Shown here one piece after another: positions 3,678 through 6,594 of a stretch of 64,000 nucleotides of DNA. The stretch is taken from the NCBI GenBank assembly GCA_018267365.1, contig JAFDYQ010000004.1:1-64000 (forward strand). Direction: 5' to 3'. Made by a program: the position numbers and the translations under genes. This DNA comes from Bacteroidota bacterium (GTDB lineage Bacteria; Bacteroidota; Bacteroidia; Chitinophagales; LD1). Every line of letters begins with the position of its first letter. The stretch's first letter is position 1. Below the pieces are notes generated by a model, which did not search any database, was not told where the DNA came from, and worked only from the letters and a program-made list of their open reading frames with translations.

Positions 3678-3826
3678 GGAGATTTAAAAGGAGAATTTTA
3701 ACATGGGAAGGAAATGGGGGAAAAGAGCATAAAAAGGCCCACCGTAAGGGTTGGACTATGAGTAAATTATATCCGTTGTAATATTCAAAAAATAAAAATC
3801 GCCAGATTTTCGCCCAGAAGCGGTTG

Positions 3827-3952
3827 TTAATTCACAATCTTCACGGGCAGATATGCGCCTCCATTTGACCCAACAATATTTACTGGTAATCCTTGAATTC
3901 CATTTATACCGTTAACACTAACAATATTAAATCTTGTATAGGATTGGAGCAT
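3827..3952 (-). pseudogene. possible 3' fragment of a lost gene (41 codons)
   Basis: A minus-strand frame open from about 3985 to a stop at 3827 contains an ATG at 3952 and encodes about 41 residues with protein-like composition, including NIVSVNGINGIQGLPVNIV and ending AYLPVKIVN. The frame is closed upstream by a stop, and a different frame covers the adjoining sequence. I do not recognise the family. It could be the tail of a gene lost by deletion and frameshift, or chance. The AT-rich setting supports the view that this is island debris. Confidence 0.2.
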
Positions 3953-4076
3953 ATACTTGAGTTGATTGAAGTAATAAAATTAAGCGCGGAATTTTTATTA
4001 ATAAGTTATCGGATAGAACGAGTAACAGTACAGCTATTACCATAAACTGGTTTGCCTCTCGGAATAATAAAAACAT
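3927..4076 (-). CDS. possible 49-residue hydrophobic peptide after the ATP-grasp gene
   Basis: An ATG at 4076, 28 bases after the ATP-grasp stop and on the same strand, opens a 49-residue frame containing the hydrophobic run FMVIAVLLLVLSDNLLI. It overlaps the fragment at 3827-3952 in a different frame. It might be a small membrane peptide of the cluster, but an alternative frame over the same bases also reads plausibly for about 25 residues. No family is recognised, so chance or decay is at least as likely. Confidence 0.18.
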   Translation of the reverse strand: MFLLFREANQFMVIAVLLLVLSDNLLIKIPRLILLLQSTQVYAPILYKI

Positions 4077-4103
4077 ATCTTGTTTACTAATCAATAATTT
4101 ATG

Positions 4104-5069
4104 TTAACAAGTACTAGAAATCTGTCTCGTCAATATCGTGTCGCACAGGCAGTCCATTATTTTCATCGAAGTCCACACTTCTAAGAATAAAAATTGCCCT
4201 CCAGGGTTCGTTTCAAAATAATAATATTGGCCAGACGGTGTTAATCTTAAATCTATAGCTGAATATACTAAACCTAGGGCTTTATTCAGTTTTATTAAAG
4301 CACTAGCAATTGAAGTGTCAAGATTATGCGCCTTCCACGGGTTTGACACATCAACCCTCCAATCTATTGGATCTTTCCCTTTTCGGGTTTCAACTTCCGC
4401 AGCAAAGATATTTTCGCCTATAACAATTACCCTAACATCTCTGTCTACTGGAATCTCTTCTTGGATAATTACGGGACAGTTGCTCAACAAGTCTAAGAAT
4501 TGTATATCATTATTTTTAAGTAAAACTGTCTTAGTGGATTTAACACTGGGATGATCTGAAAGCTTTTTACAAATAACCGAACCTTTACTATTTTGAATAA
4601 ACTGAAGTGCATCATCCTTGTTATTGGTAATCAAAGTATCTGGTATCTGCAAATTCAGCTTTTGGGCAAGCTGCAGCTGTAAGATTTTGTTATTGGCTAA
4701 CTTGTGTTTAATTGGGTTATTAACCCAATTAATTGTGGAATTGTTAAACAGACCACTCATTTGGTGATAAGTGTTTTCATGATTATATTGTGAATATTCA
4801 TCTTTTAGAAGTTCATCATGGGACAAAAATACTTCCCACCTGCGGCACCAAATCCCATTAAACGTCTGAAGGGAAAATCTCCCCTCAGACGTTATTATTT
4901 GTGAGTCAAGTTTATTAACATGAAGGTTATGAGAGATGAAATTTGCCCCACCTAATTGCCTAGTGTCTAAAACAATTGTTTTACTTGAAAATTTAGTTTC
5001 AAAATTTTCTTTGACAAGCAATAAAGTTGAATCATGATCATCATGCCCAAAGAGTAATACTTTCCTCAT
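4104..5069 (-). CDS. MvdD-type ATP-grasp ligase of a graspetide cluster
   Basis: This 321-residue protein resembles the ATP-grasp ligases that make omega-ester or omega-amide bonds in microviridin-like RiPPs (graspetides). These enzymes phosphorylate Asp/Glu side chains of a precursor core and let Ser/Thr/Lys attack. The N-terminal part holds a pre-ATP-grasp fold with VLDTRQLGG near 33-41. The ATP-grasp half includes VICKKLSDHP near 164-173, VIIQEEIPVDRDVRVIVIG near 196-214, and the metal/ATP motif YYYFETNPGGQFLFLE near 282-297, close to the E-x-NP-x-GQ-x-L-x-x-E pattern of MvdC/MvdD. The length fits the family (about 320-330). It begins directly after the stop of the precursor gene (TAAATG, no spacer), so the two are almost certainly co-translated. 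No transporter, protease or acetyltransferase lies beside it. Family assignment is strong; the ring pattern is unknown. Confidence 0.82.
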   Translation of the reverse strand: MRKVLLFGHDDHDSTLLLVKENFETKFSSKTIVLDTRQLGGANFISHNLHVNKLDSQIITSEGRFSLQTFNGIWCRRWEVFLSHDELLKDEYSQYNHENTYHQMSGLFNNSTINWVNNPIKHKLANNKILQLQLAQKLNLQIPDTLITNNKDDALQFIQNSKGSVICKKLSDHPSVKSTKTVLLKNNDIQFLDLLSNCPVIIQEEIPVDRDVRVIVIGENIFAAEVETRKGKDPIDWRVDVSNPWKAHNLDTSIASALIKLNKALGLVYSAIDLRLTPSGQYYYFETNPGGQFLFLEVWTSMKIMDCLCDTILTRQISSTC

Positions 5070-5276
5070 TTAATCATCAATGTCACAAGTGCAGTCAGTA
5101 GCCGTATCTCTACAATTTGAGAGAGAATAATCTGCCCTCACATTCGTATTTTTGGGAACACCTCCTGTTTTGTTAACGTATTTGAGGAAAAGTTCTTTGA
5201 ACACTTTTGTTTCGTCCTGATTTAATGCTTCATTTTGAATTTCGAAAATGAAAGGCTTTTTTGTGTTTTCGCTCAT
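5070..5276 (-). CDS. putative graspetide (omega-ester peptide) precursor
   Basis: This 68-residue peptide lies directly upstream of the ATP-grasp ligase. The leader contains KPFIFEIQNEAL at residues 7-18, which resembles the PFFARFL-type helix that microviridin ligases bind. The C-terminal part is a plausible core: from about residue 49 it reads ADYSLSNCRDTATDCTCDI followed by two Asp. This gives hydroxyl donors (S51, S53, T58, T60, T63), carboxyl partners (D57, D61, D65, D67, D68) and three Cys (C55, C62, C64). Known microviridin cores carry the TxKxPSD motif, which is absent here, so the ring topology should differ. The role is inferred from position, leader and core composition; the product is unknown. 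Confidence 0.7.
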   Translation of the reverse strand: MSENTKKPFIFEIQNEALNQDETKVFKELFLKYVNKTGGVPKNTNVRADYSLSNCRDTATDCTCDIDD

Positions 5277-5371
5277 AAAACTTATTTTTCGCTTACTCTA
5301 TATAAGACCGTTTTCAGCTTCCCCGGTTGCGTACTCTGATTCGCAGCTTTTCCGCTATTCGCTGTAAATGT

Positions 5372-5779
5372 TTAATAATGATCGGCCATTACAATCGGAT
5401 GACCGTTTGGGCAATTTCCTAAATCAGTTAAACGTATAATGGAAGCTTCTATAAGAGAAATATTATTAGCTGTATAAATACATGCTCCAGCAAAGGATGA
5501 TTGCCAATTACCAAAGATTTGTCCTTGAGAATGATAAATCAAATCCTTTCTAGAGAAATGCGTGTAGCTTAATAGATGTTTTTCCTCAGGTAATTCATTG
5601 TTTAGAATAGATCTAATTTCTCCGGAGAATATTGAATTTGCTAATTGTATAGCAATTTTATCATTATTTGCATCAACTTCAATGACTGATATTTTTCCAA
5701 CAATATCTAAACATTCAAATGTGTAATGATATCCGAAATTGAGAAGTAACTCTGATTTTGACTTTAGCTTAATTTCCAT
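5372..5779 (-). CDS. hypothetical protein, 135 residues, graspetide island
   Basis: I do not recognise this protein. It begins MEIKLKSKSELLLNFGYHY and ends GNCPNGHPIVMADHY. It has no signal peptide or obvious membrane segment. A mid-protein stretch (FGNWQSSFAGACIYTANN) is followed by LIEASIIRLTDLGNCPNGH. It lies 95 bases upstream of the precursor gene on the same strand and shares the AT-rich composition of the island, so it could be transcribed with the cluster. The gap suggests the precursor may also have its own promoter. Function could be immunity, regulation or unrelated; nothing in the sequence decides. Confidence 0.6.
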   Translation of the reverse strand: MEIKLKSKSELLLNFGYHYTFECLDIVGKISVIEVDANNDKIAIQLANSIFSGEIRSILNNELPEEKHLLSYTHFSRKDLIYHSQGQIFGNWQSSFAGACIYTANNISLIEASIIRLTDLGNCPNGHPIVMADHY

Positions 5780-6003
5780 AATAATTTATTTTAATAATTT
5801 CTTGAAATTCTTAGTGACTTTCTGTAAGCTTTGATTGGAAATTTTTCTTTCAACTTCTGTCAAGGAATATAAAGCATATTAAAATTCTATAAATGTTATT
5901 AAATTATATTATATGCTCTATAACTTTCTTATGCATGCCAATGGAAGAGCATTTCGCAAGTCAGATTCTTTATCGTAAGCTGAATTTCTTTATAATATCT
6001 TAT

Positions 6004-6153
6004 TCACATTATAGGTAGTTTAAATGTAATCTCTATCCCATAAGTAGCCTTGACGTTAATTCTGTTGAACATTCCAATGTTTTTTGGAATTGTGATCGTT
6101 TTATTTTTCCATTGATAAATGTCCAATTCCTTAACCAATGAATCAATAGCCAT
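6004..6153 (-). CDS. 49-residue ORF overlapping the luxR stop
   Basis: An ATG at 6153 overlaps the stop codon of the LuxR-type gene as TAATG, so translation could be coupled. The frame encodes 49 residues beginning MAIDSLVKELDIYQWKNK and ending ATYGIEITFKLPIM. The C-terminus has the look of the last strand of a GHKL ATPase domain (ITFKLPI), so it may be the tail of a lost histidine kinase, but this is weak. About 220 AT-rich bases between it and the 135-residue gene show no further feature. Confidence 0.35.
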   Translation of the reverse strand: MAIDSLVKELDIYQWKNKTITIPKNIGMFNRINVKATYGIEITFKLPIM

Positions 6154-6383
6154 TAATGGCTATTTTTTATTTCGGAGGAACTGTTATATAAAAACACCAA
6201 CTCCGCACTACTCTTCGCAGCATTTCGCGCGAGCATATTCTTGCGGTGATTAGACACTGTGTTATCGCTGATCTTGAGTTGATGGGCGATCTGTTTGCTG
6301 CTGTAGCCGCGGGCTACGAGGGAGAGGATCTCTTTTTCGCGTTGGGTCAGCGAAAGAGAGGGGATTGATAAAGGCTCATTCAT
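6153..6383 (-). CDS. small LuxR/NarL-type HTH regulator
   Basis: This 76-residue protein is essentially only a GerE/LuxR-type DNA-binding domain. LTQREKEILSLVARGYSSKQIAHQL is followed by the recognition helix segment ISDNTVSNHRKNMLARN, typical of the family. There is no receiver or PAS domain, and a stop codon lies in frame just upstream of the ATG, so it is not an obvious truncation by a late start. It is on the same strand as the graspetide genes and lies in the same AT-rich island, so it may regulate them. Such DNA-binding domains usually sit behind a sensory domain, and this one may be a remnant of a larger regulator. Confidence 0.75.
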   Translation of the reverse strand: MNEPLSIPSLSLTQREKEILSLVARGYSSKQIAHQLKISDNTVSNHRKNMLARNAAKSSAELVFLYNSSSEIKNSH

Positions 6384-6594
6384 GGTCTATCAGGTTTAAA
6401 GGATTAAAATGCTGGGGTAGACCTAAGGTCATGAGTCTTTTTATTCCTATCAAGCGTTTTCGAGATGGCTAACCATTTCTAGGTATGCATCTTCAACAAA
6501 AGCAAAAACTTTAATATCAAACAGAATATTAAATTATTCTTCCCTATACCTATAAATGGGTAGATGACCCGCTACCCACACCCGTTTATAATCC

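Follow-up and report, generated by a model that had tools for sequence, protein, structure and literature searches.

A probable orphan graspetide precursor-ligase pair on an AT-rich accessory island of a Bacteroidota bacterium

Two adjoining genes in the 64,000-nucleotide stretch of Bacteroidota DNA analyzed here (the window) very probably form a minimal graspetide system, which would make a peptide ringed through its side chains; we infer its catalysis, ring number, cleavage and activity. The pair is probably an orphan member of the graspetide class and is predicted to be functional. Its parts are:

5070..5276, minus strand: predicted graspetide precursor ORF, 68 aa, MSENTKKPFIFEIQNEALNQDETKVFKELFLKYVNKTGGVPKNTNVRADYSLSNCRDTATDCTCDIDD
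within 5070..5276, minus strand: leader, precursor residues 1-39, with PFIFEI at 8-13 (a match to the motif Phhx(1,2)h) and GG at 38-39
within 5070..5276, minus strand: predicted core, precursor residues 40-68, VPKNTNVRADYSLSNCRDTATDCTCDIDD, assuming cleavage after GG
4104..5069, minus strand: graspetide synthetase, an MvdC/MvdD-like ATP-grasp ligase of 321 aa, containing ETNPGGQFLFLE

The original prediction described a 68-aa peptide ending in TAAATG before an ATP-grasp protein carrying this motif, and all of these are in place: the TAA of the precursor directly abuts the ATG of the ligase (junction 5072-5067, minus strand), with no spacer. The leader segment which it named, KPFIFEIQNEAL, lies at precursor residues 7-18, and the core with Thr/Ser, several Asp and three Cys is likewise present, with the Cys at positions 55, 62 and 64. 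The core is rich in Ser, Thr and Asp and terminates in DIDD; as had been noted, it is without TxKxPSD. Candidate ring donors within it are K42, T44, S51, S53, T58, T60 and T63, and candidate acceptors are D49, D57, D61, D65, D67 and D68.

The leader motif Phhx(1,2)h is a published one, present in about half of graspetide precursors (PMC8939145). While this loose form was taken from the literature (PMC8939145), a stricter criterion, [KR]P-h-h-x(1,2)-h for the leader together with Ser/Thr plus Asp/Glu in the tail, was set after the peptide had been seen, and it should be kept in mind that the counts for leader plus tail follow that choice: the precursor alone matched among 135 ATG-started window ORFs of 45-110 aa, and first-order Markov DNA simulated from the surrounding island gave 867 ORFs, none of which matched. 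Shuffling the precursor restored leader, tail and GG together in 6 of 100,000 cases. A search of 395 genomes of the same class gave no precursor homologues, only chance-level matches besides the precursor itself. The precursor is therefore a singleton: it offers no alignment from which to read conserved ring residues, and conservation gives no proof of its translation or of its ring residues. The earlier suggestion of a new ring pattern is a guess.

The ligase is a divergent graspetide synthetase of the MvdC/MvdD type. Its best NCBIfam matches are TIGR04187 (1.5e-50), MvdD (3.1e-47) and MvdC (4.1e-47), while grasp-with-SPASM (2.1e-14) and rimK (2.8e-13) trail them by over 30 orders of magnitude. 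None of the bit scores reaches its curated cut-off (161 against 425 for MvdC, 161 against 475 for MvdD and 172 against 350 for GRASP_SAV_5884), which makes it a divergent relative and not an equivalog. Pfam finds a RimK-like ATP-grasp domain, with the MvdD pre-ATP-grasp domain just under its cut-off. The best PDB sequence matches are MdnB, MdnC, AMdnB and CdnC, with PruB (9bou) and PsnB also matched, and chains of these same six proteins take ranks 1-31 among the PDB fold matches of the ligase model; LysX-type and RimK chains appear only from rank 32. Across 33 ligases (the window ligase and 32 relatives) R76, K168, Q203, D236-x-R238, D273, E286 and N288 are invariant; the D-x-R pair is reported to be a substrate-recognition motif in PsnB.

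It could be argued from the RimK-like name that Pfam gives to the central domain, and from the scores below graspetide cut-offs, that this protein belongs with the RimK-like amino-acid ligases, has some other protein as its substrate and is unrelated to the small ORF. We consider this very improbable, because the macrocyclases match far better by HMM, PDB sequence and fold and because the spacer-free TAAATG coupling links the ligase to a peptide with a published leader motif. A RimK-like assignment was accordingly rejected (rimK 2.8e-13 against TIGR04187 1.5e-50, RimK folds from rank 32 onwards). Two other assignments were also rejected: grasp-with-SPASM, as the host genome (97% complete) gave no match to the SPASM partner (TIGR04193) and the ligase score is only 2.1e-14, and classic microviridin, as there is no TxKxPSD core and one ligase only. 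The ligase family and fold, together with the leader motif, support the proposal that the two genes form a graspetide-type system whose leader is PFFARFL-like. In an AlphaFold model of the precursor fused to the ligase by reading the TAA through, confidence is mostly 80-98 for the ligase and low for the leader segment and core. As the leader is not confidently placed, we infer leader binding from the motif only.

In a first tree of 53 rows the window ligase was weakly placed among long branches that met, and its grouping there with the ligase of locus L043 was not relied on. After removal of the most extreme long branches, L043 included, the second tree paired the window ligase with that of locus L003 (96/95) and then joined the two to the MdnB and MdnC clades (89/90), with the long end branch of the window ligase leaving its exact place uncertain. 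Where the ligase would cluster had been set beforehand as a refutation test; by HMM, fold and tree it falls with microviridin-type macrocyclases. The closest ligases found have about 33-35% identity to it along part of the sequence, and plasmid and phage records held distant ligases only, about 22-32% identical. Scans of GTDB and IMG/VR contigs with the window ligase as query yielded no relative. A two-sequence ligase profile recovered only four distant loci, and one of seven sequences was too divergent for scanning. The host genome has one TIGR04187-type match.

The original prediction further depended on homologues of the ligase having a small peptide nearby, and leader-bearing peptides do adjoin several single-ligase relatives. 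We systematically scanned the ligase loci for leader peptides ending in Ser/Thr plus acidic residues. Such a peptide stands alongside the two-ligase microviridin/chryseoviridin loci (PFFAxF) and adjoins the ligase at seven single-ligase loci: L003, L005 (PFSFRF), L006 and L039 (both PLILEF), L015 (PFTLKF), L016 (PVVFHF) and L033 (PFLFDF). The L003 peptide contains repeated T-x-K-F-x-D/E-D units, and its leader-motif match may be part of a repeat. Two more, missed by the filter, were added by eye (L014, KPLLMKF...TPDD; L042, VFATKFLE, downstream of the ligase). Several further loci with one ligase (L037 and L043-L046 among them) gave no leader peptide in the scan, nor did the separate clade L021-L029, whose members are taken to be putative grasp-with-SPASM ligases judging from their neighbour genes. 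The cores are wholly different from locus to locus, and graspetide cores of Bacteroidota have been reported to differ likewise (PMC8939145).

Two of these peptides can be described further. The putative L003 precursor (781-1296, genome G067) begins with its many T-x-K-F-x-D/E-D repeats and closes with a helix-like stretch rich in Gln, Lys and Glu, so it perhaps carries its core first and its leader last. At L016 (genome G292) the precursor-like ORF ends 143 nt before the ligase, and behind the leader PVVFHF it has the Cys/Asp-rich tail SGTCCESGSPSNDCDQD. More cores of this Cys/Asp kind were sought in the family of L016, which gave one further distant ligase and no clear precursor.

For the window pair we propose that the ligase would bind the 68-aa precursor through its PFIFEI leader segment and phosphorylate the side chains of Asp residues, in which the C-terminus is rich. 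Nearby Thr or Ser residues (less likely Lys42) would attack the activated Asp, giving one to several macrolactone rings, each with a loss of 18 Da. The calculated monoisotopic masses before modification are 7763.72 Da for the precursor and 3204.38 Da for the predicted core. A protease whose gene lies elsewhere would then free the core, cutting probably after GG38-39. The product is most likely a small constrained peptide, and protease inhibition is the default guess; all graspetides characterised up to the date of PMC8939145 were protease inhibitors.

The core Cys would most simply be free or disulfide-bonded. The mixed ester/disulfide or thioester product that had been put forward is a guess: in PMC13097080 and PMC12291112 thioesters are described only as products of synthetases on altered or substituted substrates, and the former calls them non-native. 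Cys62 and Cys64 sit among Asp residues and synthetases are able to form such non-native thioesters (PMC13097080, PMC12291112), so one could picture the Cys as ligase nucleophiles and a native product with Asp-Cys thioester links, alone or in addition to esters. Our literature search found no native graspetide thioester, and Thr58, Thr60, Thr63, Ser51 and Ser53 are available as ordinary donors, which leaves this picture with little probability. Scarcely more probable is the wider proposal that the core Cys are natural donors, in either a native Asp-Cys thioester or a disulfide-locked ester cage, within a Cys/Asp-rich family shared with L016. Conserved Cys occur in many new graspetide precursors, often in SPASM-enzyme loci (PMC8939145). 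If Cys do join in ring formation here, we know of no earlier natural case.

The surroundings of the pair include:

3700..6469, no strand: AT-rich accessory island between atpD and the pyrF side, defined by GC drop and comparison with congeners
5277..5365, minus strand: upstream element of two GAAAA...AGAGTANGC half-copies, directly before the precursor ATG
5372..5779, minus strand: 135-aa ORF upstream of the pair, no family match
6153..6383, minus strand: LuxR-type (GerE) DNA-binding protein, 76 aa (PF00196, 4.5e-18)

GC content is about 28-39% from 3.6 to 6.5 kb and about 50% on both flanks. Homology in three congeners stops at 3699-3723 on the atpD side and at 6469-6526 on the pyrF side, and the gap is filled in them by unrelated genes: one congener has an astacin-like peptidase there, a second has a caspase-like protein, and unknowns occur as well. 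The atpD-pyrF interval is a hotspot of accessory (cargo) genes, and the gene pair would travel as such cargo. Neither an integrase nor a dedicated exporter was recognized in the island. The upstream element recurs, 79-80% identical, ahead of unrelated genes at two sites in one congener (L096 3397-3478 and L089 about 1768-1840), and at all three loci of the genus the element of about 80-90 bp has a LuxR-type protein of 75-76 aa within about 2.6 kb. It is a candidate for an operator or promoter common to these loci; the 76-aa LuxR-type protein is a possible regulator. A search of 378 genomes from the order gave no homologue for the 135-aa ORF, which is a possible accessory gene of the pair.

The island neighbours of the pair look ORFan-like or fragmentary, and the locus could therefore be decaying. 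This AT-rich setting with its ORFans and fragments, the failure to detect a C39 peptidase in the 97%-complete host genome and the absence of the ligase from six other searched genomes of the genus, some of them incomplete, would all fit a graspetide pair by origin which is now inactive, recently acquired cargo without protease or exporter and without a released product. We regard such inactivity as unlikely, although clearly less so than a RimK-like role: both ORFs are intact, the ligase keeps every conserved residue, and ATP-grasp loci do not typically include a C39 peptidase gene (PMC8939145). A pair that probably works is the reading we keep.

What is known in this system is the kind of ligase, and what is new is a peptide without a match in the searched genomes. 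The window contributes a minimal orphan pair of precursor and ligase whose branch lies close to the MdnB and MdnC clades without falling inside them, and it offers a compact test of how much core change leader recognition tolerates. Published graspetides fall into 43 groups (PMC13097080). With microviridin and chryseoviridin (MdnB-MdnC, CdnC; group 1) the window pair shares ligase fold and family, conserved residues and a leader of the P-F-h-h-x-F kind, its ligase being up to 28% identical to MdnB/MdnC in the tree alignments; those systems have two ligases, PFFARFL and TxKxPSD, whereas the window pair has one ligase, PFIFEI, no TxKxPSD and three Cys. Plesiocin (PsnA/PsnB) and thuringinin resemble it in the single ligase, Thr/Ser donors and acidic C-terminus, but the window ligase is nearer to MdnB/MdnC than to PsnB, and its precursor has a single core without TTxxxxEE-type repeats. 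The grasp-with-SPASM systems (GwsG) of Bacteroidota also use an ATP-grasp ligase, and Cys-containing precursors are common there (PMC8939145), but no SPASM partner was detected in the host genome and the ligase scores far lower for that family.

Among orphan pairs, that of Mucilaginibacter phyllosphaerae (L033/L098) is similar in that a lone ligase stands next to its peptide: the ligase aligns in part, at 33-35% identity, and the peptide, 4 nt upstream, reads KPFLFDFLEE...DSDDE. Its core has no Cys and resembles the window precursor in leader and acidic end only, and its ligase is not the nearest to ours in the tree. It adjoins a phage-type integrase, TrwC relaxase and TraG/TraD-like and ArdC-type proteins and looks like part of an integrative conjugative element, while the window island is without these. 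The L016 locus, from the same order (family f18), has a related ligase (23% identical), the leader PVVFHF and the Cys/Asp-rich C-terminus; its precursor is longer and separated by the 143-nt gap, and the two cores are not alignable beyond this general pattern.
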